DNA from: a virus
IMG/VR virus record: IMGVR_UViG_3300020396_000013
Coordinates: 1-42,936 of that record
Length of the DNA: 42,936 nt
Reading direction: 5' to 3' (one strand)
Each line of letters opens with the position of its first letter. Positions within the stretch are counted from its first letter, which is position 1. Below the pieces are notes generated by a model. That model was not told the origin of the DNA. It worked only from the letters and a program-made list of their open reading frames with translations, and ran no database searches. Below are positions 19,494-42,886 of this stretch, piece after piece. The translations under genes were made by a program, and so were the position numbers.

Positions 19494-20144
19494 ATGAAAC
19501 TAATTGCTGAGTACTGTGACGGTGCATTAGATTTAATCACTGAAGCAAAAGAAAATGGTGAAAAGTCTTATCAAATAGAAGGCGTTTTTGCACAAGCAGA
19601 GGCGAAGAATAGAAATGGTCGTATGTATCCAAAGCCTATTATGGAAAATGCGATCAACAAATATGTAAAAGAACAAGTTAAAACTGGACGCGCTGTAGGT
19701 GAGTTAAATCATCCAGACGGTCCAACTGTTAACTTGGACAAGGTATCCCATCGTATTACTGACCTCAAGTTTGAGGGAAATGATGTGATGGGTAAAGCAC
19801 TTATATTAGATACTCCAATGGGTAAAGTTGTAAAAGGTTTACTTGATGGTGGGTGTCAACTGGGTGTTTCGACTCGTGGTATGGGAAGTCTTGAGAAACG
19901 TAATGGAATAATGGAGGTTAAGGATGATTTTATTCTTAACACCGTTGACATTGTTCAAGACCCAAGCGCACCTAACGCTTTTGTTAATGGTATAATGGAA
20001 GGTGTAGACTGGGTATGGGATAATGGAATGATTAAACCTCAAGAAATTGAAAAAATAGAGACTGAAATAAAAAGAACTCCATCAAAAGGTTTGCAAGAAG
20101 CGCAAATTCGTGGGTTTGAAAATTTCCTCTCGTTGCTGAAATAA
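19494..20144 (+). CDS. 21: Prohead protease gp21
   Basis: This is the serine protease that sits in the prohead core and, at maturation, cuts gp22, gp23, core and internal proteins after (L/I)xE. Visible features are the GVFAQAEAKNRNGRMYP segment, the catalytic His in GELNHPDG (H73) and the catalytic Ser in LGVSTRGMG (S126), followed by DIVQDPSAPNAF. The length is 216 aa, essentially as in T4 (about 212). An internal LITE at residues 14-17 would allow self-cleavage. It starts 3 bases after the preceding stop and is followed by scaffold and capsid genes in the T4 order. Confidence 0.95.
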   Translation: MKLIAEYCDGALDLITEAKENGEKSYQIEGVFAQAEAKNRNGRMYPKPIMENAINKYVKEQVKTGRAVGELNHPDGPTVNLDKVSHRITDLKFEGNDVMGKALILDTPMGKVVKGLLDGGCQLGVSTRGMGSLEKRNGIMEVKDDFILNTVDIVQDPSAPNAFVNGIMEGVDWVWDNGMIKPQEIEKIETEIKRTPSKGLQEAQIRGFENFLSLLK

Positions 20145-32497: not shown

Positions 32498-32505
32498 TAT
32501 AAATA
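32498..32505 (+). promoter_or_regulatory. T4-type late promoter (TATAAATA) before regA and the accessory cassette
   Basis: An exact TATAAATA box lies 6 bases after gene 62 and 42 bases before regA. Behind it run regA and the leader-bearing genes up to 35096 with gaps of 0-11 bases, so it probably makes the cassette a late operon, the timing needed for packaging its products into heads. Confidence 0.78.
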
Positions 32506-32960: not shown

Positions 32961-33524
32961 ATGCAGAGTTTCAAATCTCACCTTATAAATGAAAGTGCGC
33001 TTAGTGCGCTAAGAACTGCGACGAAAGCCCACAAAGGGCAGTTTAGAAAAAGTGGTGGTGAATACATTGCTCATCCAAAAGAAGTCGCTAAAATAGTTGC
33101 TAAGTTCAAACCAAAATCAAAAAATTTATCTGCATTAGTTCAAGCAGCATATCTGCATGATACTATAGAAGATACTGATTTATCACACGCTGACTTAGTT
33201 AAGCAGTTTGGTGGGTTGGTTGCCAATCTTGTTGACCAATTGACCACTAAAAAAGATGATCTGGAAGCAGCAGGTGGTAAGGGTGAGTATATAAAAGATA
33301 AGATGGTCAACATGACAAGTTGGGCATTAGTTATTAAACTCGCTGATAGACTTGCTAATGTATCTGATATTAAGCAGCAGAAACCAGAATGGCAAAGAAA
33401 ATATGCTGGCGATACAAAATTGGCGTTAGACGCTGTAAAAAGAGATAGAAAACATTTGAGTCCTACGCATAAGAAAATTATTAAGAATATAGAAACTATT
33501 ATCAAACCTTATGTGAAAGGATAA
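32961..33524 (+). CDS. HD-domain hydrolase of RelA/SpoT-MESH1 type with capsid-targeting-like leader
   Basis: The protein opens MQSFKSHLINES, then forms a complete small alarmone hydrolase domain of about 170 residues: HKGQFRKSGGEYIAHP with H38, the YLHDTIED box with H66/D67 and E70/D71, and KLADRLANVSD with D129/N133. The spacing within these boxes equals that of the (p)ppGpp 3'-hydrolase domain of SpoT/Rel (H77-D78-E81-D82 and D144-N148), so hydrolysis of ppGpp or a related nucleotide is likely. There is no synthetase domain. The leader, the (I/L)xE site INE at 9-11 and the late promoter suggest packaging in the head and delivery with the DNA. It follows regA with no gap. Confidence 0.88.
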   Translation: MQSFKSHLINESALSALRTATKAHKGQFRKSGGEYIAHPKEVAKIVAKFKPKSKNLSALVQAAYLHDTIEDTDLSHADLVKQFGGLVANLVDQLTTKKDDLEAAGGKGEYIKDKMVNMTSWALVIKLADRLANVSDIKQQKPEWQRKYAGDTKLALDAVKRDRKHLSPTHKKIIKNIETIIKPYVKG

Positions 33525-33529
33525 ATTCT

Positions 33530-33877
33530 ATGAAACTTTTTTCTAAATTTATAACAGAAATAACTAAAAATCAACGTAAAAAGAAAGAAGCCTATGCTTT
33601 GACATATGTTAGGCAAGGCAAGATGGGTATTCTAAGAATTAGGCCATTACCAGGAAGCAAGTGGGTTGAGGTACGTGGTAAGGTGGGATTTGAAAATAAT
33701 TACGATGAAAATGATTATTTACACAGAACTATGACTCTTATCGGTAAAGGTGTAAATGTATCTGAATTTGTAAATGGTTCAGAGGTTGTACTATATGATA
33801 GAGGTGATAAAGTTGCAAAACTAGCATTAAGAGCAGTTAGGGCAATTGTAAAATATCCAGACGTACAGCATTGGTAG
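33530..33877 (+). CDS. Basic hypothetical protein with capsid-targeting-like leader, 115 aa
   Basis: The N-terminus MKLFSKFITE aligns without gaps to the MKTYQEFIAE type of leader that I recall from T4 internal proteins, with ITE as the predicted gp21 cut. The remainder is a Lys/Arg-rich, beta-strand protein (GKMGILRIRPLPGSKWVEVRGKVGF, then VLYDRGDKVAKLALRAVRAIV), a composition suited to binding packaged DNA. I do not recognise the family. It lies between the HD hydrolase and the CCA-enzyme-like gene, 5 bases after one and 10 before the other, in what looks like one transcript. Confidence 0.75.
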   Translation: MKLFSKFITEITKNQRKKKEAYALTYVRQGKMGILRIRPLPGSKWVEVRGKVGFENNYDENDYLHRTMTLIGKGVNVSEFVNGSEVVLYDRGDKVAKLALRAVRAIVKYPDVQHW

Positions 33878-33887
33878 GTAATAATAA

Positions 33888-35096
33888 ATGAAAAGTTTTA
33901 TATCTCATTTAAATGAAAGTATGTTAGAAAAACTTTTAACTATGAAAGTTAGAAAGTCTATTAAAAACGCTGGTGGTAAAATCTATCAAATTGGTGGTGT
34001 GGTTCGTGATGAACTACTTGGAAAGGTTTCAAAAGACTTAGACTTAATCGTTGTTGGTGTAGAACTAAGCGATTTAGAAGAAATATTAAAGCCTCACGGT
34101 AAAGTGAATATGGTTGGCAAATCTTTTGGTATTCTAAAATTTGTACCAACAGGTTCAACAGAAGAAGAAGATGTTGATATTTCAGTACCAAGAGTTGACT
34201 CTAAGAGTACTGGGGCTGGTCATAAAGATTTTGAGGTACAATTAGGAAAAGGTATTACTTTACAACAAGATCAGTTGAGAAGAGATTTTTGGATAAATCA
34301 ATTGGCTAAAGATGTTGATACTGGAGAGATTATTGACACTGATGGCAAGGGTATGAAAGATATTAAGAATAAAGAAATTCGTATGATCAGTCCTACTTCA
34401 TTTGAAGATGATCCTTTAAGAATGTTAAGAGCCATTCAATTCGCGGCTAGGTTTGAATTTAAAATTGAAAAAAATACTTTCAAGGAAATGAAAAAACAAG
34501 CACATACTATTTCATCAGTTTCTTCTGATAGATTCAATGAAGAATTTAAAAAACTTTTCACCAAATCAAAAAAACCATCAATCGGTGTAAAACTTTTATT
34601 TGAAAGTGGATTGATTAAACATTTATTCCCAAAGGCATCCATTAAAGACATTAATTTAAAAGCATTAGATAAACTAGAAACTAAAAACTATGGTGCTTTT
34701 ATAGGAATGGTTCTAATGAGTTATAAACAAGATGCTGGTAAAATCGCCAAGGCTGGAATGAAATTATCTAATATTGATTCCAAAGCAGTTCAATCTGTAA
34801 CTTCATACAAAGATATGGATTTAGTTAAATTAGTTGGATGGGCTAAAGATAACGATATTAAATCTGTTGATGCCTATCTTACTGCTATAGGAAAACCAAC
34901 AGTATCATCAAAATTAAAAGGTGTTAAATACCTTTCAATTAAAGAACTACCTATAAATGGAAAAGATGTTTCTCAATTGGGGTTTAAAGGTAAGAGTATA
35001 GGTGATGCTTTACAATCTGCATTAGATTTCTCTATTAAGACTAATAAAACAAGTAAAAACGATCTTCTTAAACATATAAATAGTAAGAACAAATGA
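33888..35096 (+). CDS. CCA-adding enzyme / poly(A) polymerase-like nucleotidyltransferase with capsid-targeting-like leader
   Basis: After a leader MKSFISHLNES, residues 30-190 form a class II nucleotidyltransferase: GGVVRD (36-41), the metal-binding DLD (50-52), another acidic pair in EEDVDIS (95/97), RRDF (131-134), and the binding block EDDPLRMLRAIQFAARF (173-189). A helical region with SSDRFNEEFKKLF and FESGLIKHLFP follows, as in CCA-adding enzymes. The last 150 residues are not recognised. The length of 402 aa is typical. The substrate may be tRNA 3' ends (CCA repair) or RNA tails; the sequence cannot decide. The leader implies internal head location. The C-terminal codons contain the late promoter of the next gene. 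Confidence 0.88.
   Translation: MKSFISHLNESMLEKLLTMKVRKSIKNAGGKIYQIGGVVRDELLGKVSKDLDLIVVGVELSDLEEILKPHGKVNMVGKSFGILKFVPTGSTEEEDVDISVPRVDSKSTGAGHKDFEVQLGKGITLQQDQLRRDFWINQLAKDVDTGEIIDTDGKGMKDIKNKEIRMISPTSFEDDPLRMLRAIQFAARFEFKIEKNTFKEMKKQAHTISSVSSDRFNEEFKKLFTKSKKPSIGVKLLFESGLIKHLFPKASIKDINLKALDKLETKNYGAFIGMVLMSYKQDAGKIAKAGMKLSNIDSKAVQSVTSYKDMDLVKLVGWAKDNDIKSVDAYLTAIGKPTVSSKLKGVKYLSIKELPINGKDVSQLGFKGKSIGDALQSALDFSIKTNKTSKNDLLKHINSKNK
35075..35082 (+). promoter_or_regulatory. T4-type late promoter (TATAAATA) inside the end of the CCA-like gene
   Basis: An exact TATAAATA box covers the last codons of the preceding gene, 29 bases before the next start. It probably drives 35111-36610 as a separate late transcript. 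Confidence 0.72.
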
Positions 35097-35110
35097 TAAA
35101 GGACTGAAAC

Positions 35111-35683
35111 ATGGCATGGGTAACTATTACAAATAATCCGAGTTGGCAATATGACAATGCCCCTGCTGATCCTGGTGCTAATAGCCCATTACGACCCTTA
35201 TGGTTAAAGCAAACCAGCGGAGTTAGAACTACCAATGGTCATGAGGTATATACAAGTGTTCGCAAAACTATCGCGGGAACTGGTACTGTTACTTTTGCTA
35301 TAACTGTTTCAAATCCAGGAGTAGGAAATAGATACTATATAGATGGTGTTGGTCCTGCTAGAATATTAAGTTTGACAGAAGGTAGAACATACCGATTCGA
35401 TCAAAGCGCATCTTCTAATTCTGGGCATCCACTTAGATTTTCTATTACGTCAAATGGAACGCATGGCGGCGGGAGCGAGTACACAACAGGAGTAACAACA
35501 GCAGGAACTCCAGGAAGTTCTGGGGCATATACTCAGATATCTGTGGCTGTTGGTGCGCCTACCTTATATTATTACTGTACAAACCACAGCAATATGGGCG
35601 GGACTGCAAACACTCCAGCATCTAGTACATCTACAGTTTCTATGGGTGAAATTAGTAAAACTTTTTGGGATAATGTATCATGA
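35111..35683 (+). CDS. Virion protein with cupredoxin-like (blue-copper) domain, 190 aa
   Basis: Residues about 60-170 read as a cupredoxin-like beta sandwich: a YYIDG strand, SLTEGRTYRFDQS, a His in SGHPLRFS (H106), a Gly-rich HGGGSEY turn, and YYYCTNHSNMGG with C156, H159 and M162. One upstream His followed by Cys-x2-His-x2-Met is the pattern of a type 1 copper site, although plastocyanin has four residues before its Met. I recall very similar segments repeated in marine phage tail and fibre proteins. The N-terminus (MAWVTITNNPSWQY) carries no targeting leader. The late promoter and absence of a signal peptide suggest a virion surface or fibre-associated protein. Copper binding is unproven. 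Its TGA overlaps the next ATG. Confidence 0.7.
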   Translation: MAWVTITNNPSWQYDNAPADPGANSPLRPLWLKQTSGVRTTNGHEVYTSVRKTIAGTGTVTFAITVSNPGVGNRYYIDGVGPARILSLTEGRTYRFDQSASSNSGHPLRFSITSNGTHGGGSEYTTGVTTAGTPGSSGAYTQISVAVGAPTLYYYCTNHSNMGGTANTPASSTSTVSMGEISKTFWDNVS

Positions 35684-35949
35684 TTAAGTTTATGACATTT
35701 ATAACTGATGAGTATCAGAGAGATTACAAAAAAGAACGAAAAAACTATCTTGGAACTCCAGAGCAGATGGAGAGAAACGCCGCTAGAAAACGCGCTAGAA
35801 GAAAGATGGAAAAAGAGGGTAAGGCAGAGCCTTTTGATGGAAGAGATATTCATCACAAAGATGGTGACCCACTCAATAATAATCCAAAAAACTTATCAAG
35901 TGTAACTGTCCATTATAATCGTAAAGAGCCAAGGATGAGAGATAAATGA
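35680..35949 (+). CDS. Small HNH-like nuclease with possible capsid-targeting leader, 89 aa
   Basis: The C-terminal half has the HNH (beta-beta-alpha-metal) layout: DIHHKDGDPLNNNPKNL with H58/H59, D61 and the central Asn residues, ending with H78 in VTVHYN. The middle is a very basic helix (RNAARKRARRKMEKEGK) suited to DNA contact. The first residues, MIKFMTFITDE, resemble the leaders of neighbouring genes with one residue inserted. It is too small for a complete homing endonuclease and has no intron around it. It may nick DNA or act after delivery into the host. ATGA overlaps link it to both neighbours. Confidence 0.75.
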   Translation: MIKFMTFITDEYQRDYKKERKNYLGTPEQMERNAARKRARRKMEKEGKAEPFDGRDIHHKDGDPLNNNPKNLSSVTVHYNRKEPRMRDK

Positions 35950-36212
35950 AATCTTTTAAAAATTTTAAAGAAGGTATGGACCGAGATGCTATCGCCATTT
36001 TTGCCAAAGAAGATGACGAAGAGGGTGGAGATATAACCATTTATAAATTACCTAACGTCCCATATTATAACCATGGTTACGGTGATAAGGGATGGGTTGG
36101 TGATGTACGTTCAGATTATGATTTTTTCGCTAAAAGTATGGCAGAACTTAAACAAAAAATTAAACGTGCTGGTGGCAATCCAAATAAACCAATATATGGA
36201 AAACTAAAATGA
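35946..36212 (+). CDS. Hypothetical protein with MKSFKNF leader, 88 aa
   Basis: The N-terminus MKSFKNFKEGM matches the leader pattern of the cassette in its first seven residues, but FKE replaces the (I/L)xE protease site, so cleavage is less certain. The rest is a small alpha/beta protein with an acidic EDDEEGGD turn, aromatic residues (YYNHGYGDKGWVGD) and a C-terminal helix KSMAELKQKIKRAGGNP. I do not recognise a family. It is coupled by ATGA overlaps to the HNH gene before and the 133-residue gene after, as part of the 35111-36610 transcript. Confidence 0.72.
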   Translation: MKSFKNFKEGMDRDAIAIFAKEDDEEGGDITIYKLPNVPYYNHGYGDKGWVGDVRSDYDFFAKSMAELKQKIKRAGGNPNKPIYGKLK

Positions 36213-36610
36213 AAACATTCAAAAATTTTATAATAGAAGATAAATGTGATTTGGTAGGTATGAAACAAATCAAAGCATTTGAATCTATTGTTGATAAACT
36301 ATTCAAAAAGTATGGAATTGATTTTAAATTCACTCGTCATTTTGGTGATAGGATGGGAGATGATAGAAATAATCCTTGTATTTCCATGAAAGAGTTGGCA
36401 GAATTTATAAAAAAGATTTATGCAAAGCAAGGCAAATCCCTTAAAGGTGTTGCTGGTGCAGAAGCGGTAATTAAAGATATGCAAACTAATTTGAATATTC
36501 CAGTAGCAGTTAAGTATGATCAAAGAAATGATGAATTTGATGTTGTACTGAAAACCATTATGCGTAAAAAAGATTTTAAAACTCCAGATAAGATAATACG
36601 ATATGCGTAA
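36209..36610 (+). CDS. Conserved-type phage protein with capsid-targeting-like leader, 133 aa
   Basis: MKTFKNFIIED at the start is the closest match in the window to the T4 internal-protein leader, with IIE as predicted gp21 site. The body contains FTRHFGDRMGDDRNNPCIS, a helix ELAEFIKKIYAKQGKS, VIKDMQTNLNIPVAVKYD and the end FDVVLKTIMRKKDFKTPDK. I recall this same skeleton (HFxDRxxDRRN, then DxQTxLNxP, then TIMRKxDFKT) in many marine phages, always without a known function. The repeated His/Asp/Arg residues could be an active site. It is the last gene of the leader-bearing cassette. Confidence 0.78.
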   Translation: MKTFKNFIIEDKCDLVGMKQIKAFESIVDKLFKKYGIDFKFTRHFGDRMGDDRNNPCISMKELAEFIKKIYAKQGKSLKGVAGAEAVIKDMQTNLNIPVAVKYDQRNDEFDVVLKTIMRKKDFKTPDKIIRYA

Positions 36611-36645: not shown

Positions 36646-37335
36646 ATGAAATACTTTATATCAGCACCTTTTGGAAACTATTTAAAACTTCCTAACGCAA
36701 TTAGCGTAACTGGAAGTTGGACTGTTGAAAAAAGAGAAGGACTCATTCCTCAAATTTTTAAAACTCTTAGGTATAAAAATGGTGGATGGATTAATAAAAT
36801 TGGATTGCGTAACGCAGGAATATATGAAGGTTTAAAAAGAACAAACTCTACAGATGTGTTGAGCCTTGCCGCAATAAATGAATATGATTGGATAAATTTA
36901 GACCGCATAGTAGGTAAAAATTTGTCTGTTGAAATTAATATAAGTTGTCCAAACCTTGATAAAGATGTAGGAGCGGTTAATCTTCGCGGATTTGATTTAT
37001 TTCCTAAAAATAACAGAGAATGGTGTATATGTAAGATACCGCCTACTGCGACAGAATGTCTCATAGACAAGATAGTAGATTTGGGGTATAATCAAATACA
37101 TGCAAGCAACACTTTGTACTCTTTAAATGGGGGTCAAAGTGGAACAATTTTAAAACCATATACTACAAGGATTATAGAATATATAAAGAGAAAACATCCC
37201 AGTGTCACTATAATCGCTGGTGGTGGGGTTACAAATAAGGATGATGCAGAATTTTATTTTGATAAAGGCGCAGACTATGTAAGTCTAGGAACAGTATGTT
37301 TCACACCTTGGAAAATAAAAAGCATAATTTCTTAA
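36646..37335 (+). CDS. Dihydroorotate dehydrogenase-like FMN enzyme, 229 aa
   Basis: The protein carries the FMN/orotate-binding landmarks of the PyrD barrel: KIGLRNAGI (51-59), EINISCPN (96-103), a conserved Lys in CICKIPP (K130), HASNT (152-156), AGGGVTN (191-197) and GADYVSLGTV (208-217) for the FMN phosphate. At 229 aa it is about 80 residues shorter than cellular PyrD, with the N-terminal barrel strands and active-site loop trimmed. It could still make orotate for pyrimidine synthesis during phage DNA replication, or reduce another substrate. The catalytic Ser/Cys base cannot be assigned. No promoter is seen directly upstream. It looks like an auxiliary metabolic gene. Confidence 0.8.
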   Translation: MKYFISAPFGNYLKLPNAISVTGSWTVEKREGLIPQIFKTLRYKNGGWINKIGLRNAGIYEGLKRTNSTDVLSLAAINEYDWINLDRIVGKNLSVEINISCPNLDKDVGAVNLRGFDLFPKNNREWCICKIPPTATECLIDKIVDLGYNQIHASNTLYSLNGGQSGTILKPYTTRIIEYIKRKHPSVTIIAGGGVTNKDDAEFYFDKGADYVSLGTVCFTPWKIKSIIS

Positions 37336-41603: not shown

Positions 41604-42164
41604 ATGAAACTAAAGCCAAGTGAAATGTACGATTTAGCAAAAAACAATGAAATACAGAATTATATACAAAACAATCTTTATGACCCATGGATAGGAAGCC
41701 CCTTTGAAGGATATAGATACATGGGTAATAAACAAAAGGGTGAACTAGGAGAGAGATTAGTAACTCTAATAATGGAAAAGGCTGGTTACAATGTTGAATT
41801 TGCTCACACATCAACCGCTGGATATGATAGAATTTTAAATGGAATTAAAACGGAAATTAAGTTTTCTGTTGCACATACAGACACTAAAAAAAGATCAATC
41901 AAAAAAGATTGTTTTACAATGAACCATGTCGCAGTTGGTAAAGATTGGGACCGTCTTATTTTTATTGGAGTAAATGAAAATCCTAATGAATTTAAGGCTG
42001 TGTATATGACAAAAGAAATGTTTGAAAACTGTCTGAAAACAGATAATCATTTTAATCATCAACAAGGTGGTAAAAAATCAAAGAATGATGATTATATGGT
42101 TACGGAGAAAAAACTTAGAGAACTAATACAATCAGAATATGTAAAAGAATTGAGTGAATGGTAA
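41604..42164 (+). CDS. PD-(D/E)XK-type endonuclease, probably restriction-like, 186 aa
   Basis: A helix GELGERLVTLIMEKAGYNV (46-64) precedes GYDRILNGIKTEIKFS, giving D75-x8-E84-x-K86. This is the metal-binding core of the PD-(D/E)XK nucleases, with E47/E50 in the usual helix position. The size is typical of small Type II restriction endonucleases. The next gene is a DNA methyltransferase overlapping it by 7 bases, which is the classic layout of a restriction-modification pair. An AAAGGAAT ribosome site precedes the ATG. It could cut host or competing phage DNA while the methylase protects phage DNA. A repair or recombination nuclease is the alternative. Specificity cannot be read. Confidence 0.72.
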   Translation: MKLKPSEMYDLAKNNEIQNYIQNNLYDPWIGSPFEGYRYMGNKQKGELGERLVTLIMEKAGYNVEFAHTSTAGYDRILNGIKTEIKFSVAHTDTKKRSIKKDCFTMNHVAVGKDWDRLIFIGVNENPNEFKAVYMTKEMFENCLKTDNHFNHQQGGKKSKNDDYMVTEKKLRELIQSEYVKELSEW

Positions 42165-42886
42165 AAACTATACTTGGTGATTGCTTAGAGGTATTGCCTA
42201 CAATTGAAGATAATTCAGTAGATATGCTTCTTGCTGATCTTCCATATGGCACTACTGCATGTAAATGGGATTCTGTTATTCCATTAGATAAACTATGGGA
42301 ACAATACAATAGGGTTTGTAAGAAAAATGCAGCAATGGTTTTTACCGCAATGCAACCATTCACAACAATTCTTGCTGCTTCTAATATAGAAAATTTAAGA
42401 TATGAATGGATTTGGGAAAAACCTCAAGGTACAAATCCCATGAATGTAAAAATAATGCCTTTAAAGTCTCATGAAAACATCTTAGTATTTTACCGAGAGA
42501 AACCAACTTATAATCCTCAAATGTGGTATAGTACACCGTATTCTGGATTTAGTAGCGATACTGCAAAAATTGGTGAAGTGTATGGCAATGCTGAATCAAA
42601 ACATAGGGATAACCCAGAAGGATCAAGATACCCAAAAACAGTGATAAAACATAAACAAGAAAAGGGTTATCATCCTACTCAAAAACCAGTAGGTTTGATG
42701 AAATATTTAATAAAGACTTACACTAATGAATGGGATGTTGTTCTTGATAATACGATGGGTTCTGGAACTACAGGAGTTGCTTGCGTTCATACAAATAGAG
42801 AATTTATAGGAATAGAAAAAGAAGAAAAGTATTTTAAAATAGCAGAAAAAAGATTAGGAACAAATTTAAACGAATTTTTCTATTGA
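42158..42886 (+). CDS. DNA methyltransferase (N6-adenine/N4-cytosine, beta class)
   Basis: The catalytic motif DLPYG (27-31, a DPPY variant) comes first, then the target-recognition region with TACKWDSVIPLDKLWEQY, then HPTQKPVGL (172-180) and the SAM-binding DNTMGSGTTG (197-206). This order defines the beta class of amino methyltransferases, acting on adenine N6 or cytosine N4. The 242-residue length is normal and complete. It overlaps the nuclease gene by 7 bases, so the two are co-translated. Its role may be self-protection against the neighbouring nuclease or evasion of host restriction. The recognition sequence is unknown. Confidence 0.92.
   Translation: MVKTILGDCLEVLPTIEDNSVDMLLADLPYGTTACKWDSVIPLDKLWEQYNRVCKKNAAMVFTAMQPFTTILAASNIENLRYEWIWEKPQGTNPMNVKIMPLKSHENILVFYREKPTYNPQMWYSTPYSGFSSDTAKIGEVYGNAESKHRDNPEGSRYPKTVIKHKQEKGYHPTQKPVGLMKYLIKTYTNEWDVVLDNTMGSGTTGVACVHTNREFIGIEKEEKYFKIAEKRLGTNLNEFFY

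Follow-up and report, generated by a model that had tools for sequence, protein, structure and literature searches.

Six unrelated proteins of a marine T4-like phage share a T4-type leader and form a candidate head-packaged cargo

Results

Six genes between regA and hsp20 encode proteins that begin alike

T4-like phages rank with the most abundant viruses of the sea, and the majority of their genes still lack a name. We analyzed a marine T4-like myophage from its IMG/VR record IMGVR_UViG_3300020396_000013 (42.9 kb; 42,936 nucleotides, hereafter the window). Its closest complete relative by the prohead protease gp21 is phage C48C1 (Kyanoviridae; protease 75% identical). Between regA (32541) and hsp20 (37421), six + strand genes encode proteins that share a short N-terminal leader. 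Proteins are named here by the first nucleotide of their genes. The leaders are MQSFKSHLINE, followed by SALSALR, in the 32961 protein (positions 32961-32993); MKLFSKFITE, followed by ITKN, in 33530 (33530-33559); MKSFISHLNE, followed by SMLE, in 33888 (33888-33917); the variant MIKFMTFITDE, followed by YQRD, in 35680 (35680-35712); the shortened MKSFKNFKE, followed by GMDR, in 35946 (35946-35972); and MKTFKNFIIE, followed by DKCD, in 36209 (36209-36238). Open reading frame (ORF) translations place each of these N-termini at the genes given in an initial annotation of the window, and exactly as written there. That annotation had described a cassette of neighboring leader proteins; all six genes are present, but their row is broken by a leaderless ORF at 35111-35683.

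Behind the leaders, the bodies are unrelated according to Pfam and PHROGs: HD_4, PolyA_pol and HNH_3 domains were found in three of them, while 33530, 35946 and 36209 have no Pfam match. The first gene (32961-33524) encodes an HD_4 protein (PF13328, E=1.3e-15) of the (p)ppGpp-hydrolase (SpoT/Mesh1) type. Its HD, ED and DRLxN residues are retained, the H..HD..ED..D..N catalytic signature of a SpoT/MESH1-type hydrolase can be recognized in its sequence, and its matches to RelA, SpoT and MESH1 in the PDB begin at query residue 11-23. The second gene (33530-33877) encodes a basic protein of 115 residues with no Pfam or PHROG match, a low-confidence predicted structure (predicted local distance difference test score, pLDDT, of 61) and no tblastn match in named phages; its relatives in viral contigs also have leaders. 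The third (33888-35096) encodes a class II CCA-adding/poly(A) polymerase-like nucleotidyltransferase (PF01743, E=6.9e-18; PF12627, E=1.1e-15) with apparent GGxVRD, DxD and RRDFxIN motifs as well as predicted head and RNA-binding domains. Its matches to CCA-adding enzymes and poly(A) polymerases in the PDB begin at residue 13 or later, most of them at 18-31. No tRNA was found in the window, and the CCA enzyme is not accounted for that way.

The fourth gene (35680-35949) encodes an HNH_3 protein (PF13392, E=1.1e-7, residues 47-80) that ranks first in positive charge among the 46 + strand ORFs compared. An HNH signature is discernible in it, and its homologues have canonical leaders such as MKTFKAYISE and MKSFIEYIGE. 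The 88-residue product of the fifth (35946-36212) matches no family in Pfam or PHROGs, and its only relative among the fetched loci is an identical copy. The sixth (36209-36610) encodes a conserved domain of 133 residues (phrog_23027, E=1.3e-36) that elsewhere is a module of large NMNAT-headed proteins. An alignment of its family (alignment A1) shows strong conservation of H44, R48, R53, N54 and a TIMRK motif. A comparison of its sequence profile with the PDB gave nothing significant, nor did a fold search, in which the HigB2 RNase toxin was the best match (E=0.32, template modeling score about 0.4) and is a lead only. A PADLOC search of the cassette proteins returned no match.

The leaders follow the register of the T4 capsid-targeting sequence

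In the T4 capsid-targeting sequence (CTS), aromatic residues stand at positions 4 and 7, I or L at 8 and E at 10, and the window leaders have the same register. Mutagenesis of the T4 CTS has shown that residues 4 and 7 serve targeting and that residues 8 and 10 serve processing, with D at position 10 stopping processing and not targeting (PMC9026906). T4's own record shows that ipII and ipIII both start with MKTYQEFIAE, the leader type that the initial annotation had cited; ipI starts with MKTFKEFTSTTTPVSTITE (MKTFKEF...ITE), with the aromatics kept and the site displaced. All three have F or Y at position 4 and F at 7. In the window, F4 is accompanied by F or H at position 7 in six of six leaders. 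The combination of I/L8 and E10 is exact in 33530, 33888 and 36209, and the INE of 32961 is shifted one residue later. The (I/L)xE site reads ITDE in 35680, with D at position 10, and is missing from 35946. Alignment to the T4 register bears out the earlier caution that these two leaders (FITDE and FKE) are weaker fits. By analogy with the T4 mutants, the HNH leader is expected to direct targeting while being cut poorly.

The resemblance was then compared with chance using the leader pattern M.{1,3}[FY]..[FHYWLIM][ILVFM].{1,2}E, with ORFs shuffled from residue 2 onward as control (300 runs). Five of the 49 window ORFs match this loose pattern, where the shuffled sets average 0.15 matches and never exceed 1, and their bodies fall in unrelated families, so that the shared leader proposed by the initial annotation is real. 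The sixth leader, that of 35946, lies outside the pattern and retains both key aromatics. The exact T4 register occurs in three window ORFs (0.02 expected from shuffling) and in five of C48C1 (0.07 expected); in a 50-kb control segment of T4 with 73 ORFs, it finds ipII and ipIII and no others. Across the contigs fetched with the HD and 36209 proteins, a similar pattern is present at 185 of 1961 N-terminal methionines versus 11 of 7991 internal ones, homologous copies not being collapsed in these counts. The codon strings of the six leaders differ, and the leaders are therefore not a copied DNA segment. Lysine is found at position 2 in 43% and at position 5 in 52% of leaders, compared to 13% and 12% in the background, even though the pattern leaves both positions free; with the free positions K2, S3 and K5 included, the consensus is M-K-S-F-K-x-(F/Y/H)-(L/I)-x-E.

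The leader is a portable module found on about 50 protein families

Alignments with homologues place the leader outside the conserved bodies. In comparisons with named phages, homology starts at residue 6-26 (mostly 14-16) of the HD protein, mostly at residue 19-33 of the nucleotidyltransferase, and at residue 10 or later of 36209. The initial annotation had proposed asking by alignment whether the N-termini belong to the folds themselves. The outcome is against this, with phage and PDB homologues mostly aligning past the leader. The predicted structure of 36209 has a pLDDT of 87 overall; its two opening blocks, which correspond to the leader, score 54 and 73, and the remainder 87-94. One domain can bear different leaders across relatives, and the cargo of the regA-hsp20 island varies among relatives while the leaders stay.

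We also searched related marine contigs for the leader on varied bodies, as the annotation had suggested. Leader proteins were clustered by their mature part with a coverage limit, which avoids chaining via multidomain proteins. The leader falls on 54 mature clusters. Some families are split among several of these, and a few clusters, such as UvsW in C48C1, are probable chance matches; with chance matches allowed for, the number is about 50, and it is lower once split families are merged. Among the leader-bearing families of relatives are ADP-ribosyltransferases, S-adenosylmethionine (SAM) lyases, a polynucleotide kinase/HAD-like protein, DUF6267 and NMNAT-like proteins. The SAM lyase family is PF23780, which is also reported in the S-CREM2 virion data described below. 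Leader-tagged ADP-ribosyltransferases from marine viral contigs (L120:1047-1988, L203:1069-1944 and L204:3001-3903) have HG/STS/ExE motifs and histidine-rich middle regions.

Prohead protease, late promoter elements and basic bodies accompany the leader

The initial annotation had stated that gp21 is encoded by this phage and that late promoters precede both halves of the cassette, and both statements hold. The presumed processing enzyme, a prohead protease of the gp21 type, is encoded at 19494-20144 on the + strand (phrog_207 head maturation protease, E=1e-78), and the gp22 core protein is encoded as well (phrog_237). The T4-type late promoter element TATAAATA is found on the + strand at 32498-32505, before regA and the first cassette half, and at 35075-35082, before the second. 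Its count in the window (11 versus 8 expected) is not unusual; 10 of the 11 copies are on the coding strand, and two such sites recur in the eight relatives scanned. The element is supported by position, strand and conservation only, and not by its count. In related contigs, it is located at most 120 nt upstream of 34 of 213 leader ORFs compared to 80 of 1503 others (contig-level p-value of 4e-7). From these sequence features, the leader genes are predicted to be expressed late.

Leader proteins are also basic. The six rank 1, 2, 3, 4, 6 and 8 in positive charge among the 46 + strand ORFs (p=7e-5), and the mature parts of leader proteins from related contigs carry +5.3 net charges per 100 residues in the median, versus 0.0 for other proteins. 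The corresponding values for T4 ipII and ipIII are +5.6 and +5.5.

Leader proteins are over-represented in published cyanophage virions

The initial annotation had called for virion proteomics, and we examined presence in particles using published cyanophage proteomes, namely those of S-CREM2 (PMC10665884, Table 3), S-SZBM1 (PMC9146016) and S-SCSM1 (PMC9602691). With the three phages pooled, and with the S-SZBM1 table built on annotated starts, 7 of 12 leader proteins are in particles compared to 122 of 710 others (stratified p=0.003). In S-CREM2, four of five leader proteins were detected versus 48 of 214 others (p=0.012; PMC10665884): a SAM hydrolase/lyase (MKDFDSFLEE), a kinase (MKRFDAFLTE), a cytidylyltransferase (gp154; MKNFSSFLTE, followed by ADEK) and gp136 (MQTFSMFFSE). 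The kinase gene belongs to the gp12-gp15 run, whose four products were all detected; the leaders of gp13 and gp15 are variant, and gp12 has the leader motif at residues 17-25. The single non-structural enzyme detected in S-SZBM1 begins with MRFRQFIIEA (PMC9146016), and the virion NMNAT of S-SCSM1 with MKSFLQFLKEA (PMC9602691). The kinase of S-CRM01, listed as a virion protein in PMC10665884, begins with MISFDQFLSE and is encoded inside a run of leader-tagged genes.

S-CREM2 gp12 (L166:7704-10313) resembles S-CRM01 g128 (L216:6422-6973), both having an RW..W start and a leader-like motif about 17 residues in. No Pfam family matches gp12, so that its annotation as Cas9/Csn1 has no support from Pfam, and it was not counted as a known enzyme.

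Cassette domains recur in multidomain proteins

The HD, HNH and 36209 domains also occur inside larger proteins, several of which start with a leader and then an NMNAT/cytidylyltransferase domain. For example, one protein (L068) consists of a leader followed by NMNAT, 36209 and HNH domains, a second (L117) joins NMNAT, 36209, DUF5824 and HD without a leader at its called start, and a third (L149) joins HD to 36209. The window's separate genes are linked to the family found in virions by these modules, which they share with NMNAT-headed multidomain proteins. An (I/L/M/V/F)xE site is found at most 15 residues upstream of 29 of 33 internal junctions, compared to 21% at random positions of the same proteins, and a full leader-like motif at 10 of the 33, compared to 2%; the 33 junctions are partly homologous. 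This suggests that the NMNAT-headed multidomain proteins may be polyproteins processed by gp21. Recurrent interdomain linkers, e.g., GAGDEGTDKLTKKYKKDTPGE and KPSKHTKKFKQMFGE, were observed in L117:3808-7401, L026:3697-6366 and L149:5218-6945, and some of them resemble internal leaders.

Neighboring genes

The leaderless ORF that splits the cassette (35111-35683, + strand) encodes a stand-alone tail-fiber-like domain (phrog_30742 tail fiber, E=3.7e-21) and has its own late-promoter element; shorter or other ORFs take its place in relatives. The same island contains a leaderless TIM-barrel protein resembling dihydroorotate dehydrogenase (36646-37335; PF01180, DHO_dh, E=1e-12), which is kept in most relatives of the island. 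Elsewhere in the window, next to the DNA polymerase gene, a restriction endonuclease-like gene (41604-42164; PADLOC REase_II, E=4e-9) adjoins an N6/N4 DNA methyltransferase gene (42158-42886; PF01555, E=1.7e-30), and this gene pair (41604-42886) is a possible phage-borne type II restriction-modification pair.

Discussion

We interpret the cassette as a T4-type internal-protein cargo that is packaged in the head and injected, with a probability of roughly 0.8. The initial annotation had suggested such a multi-enzyme cargo, and its suggestion is largely supported by the register and portability of the leader, the basic bodies, the late promoters and the presence of leader proteins in cyanophage virions. 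Packaging in this phage is inferred, with support by analogy with the virions of relatives; gp21 cleavage and injection are likewise inferred from T4. According to this model, each protein would be made late in infection with a detachable N-terminal leader of 9-11 residues, whose two aromatics (residues 4 and 7) would attach it to the scaffold core of the prohead. Cleavage by gp21 after (I/L)xE, expected at a minimum for the four proteins with canonical sites, would release a basic enzyme that stays on the packaged DNA and enters the next host along with it. The likely roles there are less certain: the HD protein would at time zero reduce (p)ppGpp or related alarmones, the nucleotidyltransferase would repair or tail RNA 3' ends and the HNH protein would nick or cut DNA. 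Because the RelA/SpoT/MESH1 hydrolase residues are kept, the likeliest single role of the cargo is to clear alarmones as infection begins. The other two activities, mending or tailing of RNA 3' ends and nicking or cutting of DNA, are guesses from family membership.

Several points weigh against the cargo interpretation. The 35946 protein has no (I/L)xE processing site, and the leader pattern was drawn from the window's own leaders. Contig-level p-values treat homologues as independent and are inflated, and one test of variant leaders in S-CREM2 was post hoc. The virion evidence comes from related cyanophages and not from particles of this phage. In the proteome data used, three leader proteins (S-SZBM1_191, S-SZBM1_192 and S-SCSM1 44203-44535) were undetected in particles, and taken alone neither S-SZBM1 (p=0.32, called ORFs) nor S-SCSM1 (p=0.13) is significant. 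One of the seven detected proteins, S-SCSM1 gp31 (MPFKNFLWDE), could be a structural protein that fits the pattern by chance, and the proteome papers themselves note that co-purification cannot be excluded (PMC10665884, PMC9602691).

Targeting alone is no proof of injection, and the leader could direct proteins to the prohead core to act there as scaffold or core parts, like T4 gp67 and gp68, rather than as injected effectors; marine gp21 and gp23 also have LxE-type sites near their N-termini. We consider this unlikely, given that the signature residues of the HD and nucleotidyltransferase proteins are intact, that close relatives swap cargo and that tagged enzymes are reported in mature cyanophage virions. 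It is more doubtful still that these are ordinary late cytoplasmic enzymes whose common start arose by convergence, as a signal for translation initiation or for N-terminal stability. A-rich starts do favor translation and the island also holds several non-leader genes, but F4, F/Y/H7, L/I8 and E10 are conserved at the protein level despite different codons, the pattern is rare at internal methionines, and leader proteins are basic and enriched in virions.

Two further explanations were rejected. That the N-termini are integral to each fold and alike by coincidence is very improbable: the 36209 leader is modeled as a short helix, yet it is the least confident part of that model, phage and PDB homologues mostly align only past the leader, and the same domains occur inside larger proteins without that N-terminus. 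Chance resemblance of a few K/F-rich N-termini has hardly any probability left, for while the loose pattern gives about one chance match per whole genome, the window has 5 in 49 ORFs against 0.15 expected, all in one island, the same families bear variant leaders across relatives, and both the internal-methionine comparison and the roughly 50 families speak against it.

If the cargo interpretation is true, a ten-residue tag would predict head cargo, and dozens of genes now called 'hypothetical' would become candidates for injected effectors. It would also explain the recurrent SAM lyases, kinases and NMNAT-like proteins in cyanophage virions, and would open to test a long-standing question, namely how a phage acts on its host ahead of its own gene expression. 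Injection of an alarmone hydrolase would mean direct silencing of starvation signaling or of alarmone-based defense at time zero. More broadly, the CTS leader may be a general portable tag that loads tens of enzyme families into marine T4-like heads, part of them as polyproteins that gp21 would cut at internal LxE sites into separately injected enzymes, with the modules of the window being separate genes; to this wider scheme we give even odds.

Comparison with known systems

The cassette shares with T4 IPI, IPII and IPIII the ten-residue leader register, basic non-homologous bodies, a variable cassette and an encoded gp21. Unlike the characterized T4 internal proteins, which inhibit type IV restriction enzymes, the window's tag sits on enzyme families, and the marine group has about 50 tagged families, including some large multidomain proteins. 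T4 Alt, an injected ADP-ribosyltransferase, has counterparts in the leader-tagged ADP-ribosyltransferases that adjoin relatives of the HD gene (L120, L203 and L204), whereas the window itself has none. The HD_4 protein resembles the hydrolase domain of RelA, SpoT and MESH1 in its HD, ED and DRLxN residues but is stand-alone and leader-tagged, and its substrate is a prediction.

Polyvalent proteins of phages and conjugative elements are likewise multidomain effectors presumed to be packaged in virions and injected (PMC5512222). They are often tied to MPTase, MuF or portal domains, while several of the marine multidomain proteins are headed by a T4-type leader and have LxE at domain junctions, which suggests gp21 processing. 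The virion enzymes of S-CREM2, S-SCSM1, S-SZBM1 and S-CRM01 are comparable in that SAM lyase-family, kinase and NMNAT-like proteins begin with the leader; they differ in that the parts of the reports at hand describe them without a targeting signal, and in that the window has another enzyme set. No report of the leader in marine phages was found in the literature searched, most subscription papers being outside its reach. The principle of targeting is already known from T4. What is new, as far as the literature searched shows, is how broadly it occurs among marine T4-like phages, which enzymes make up the cargo of this island, and how the leader connects to virion proteomes and multidomain proteins.

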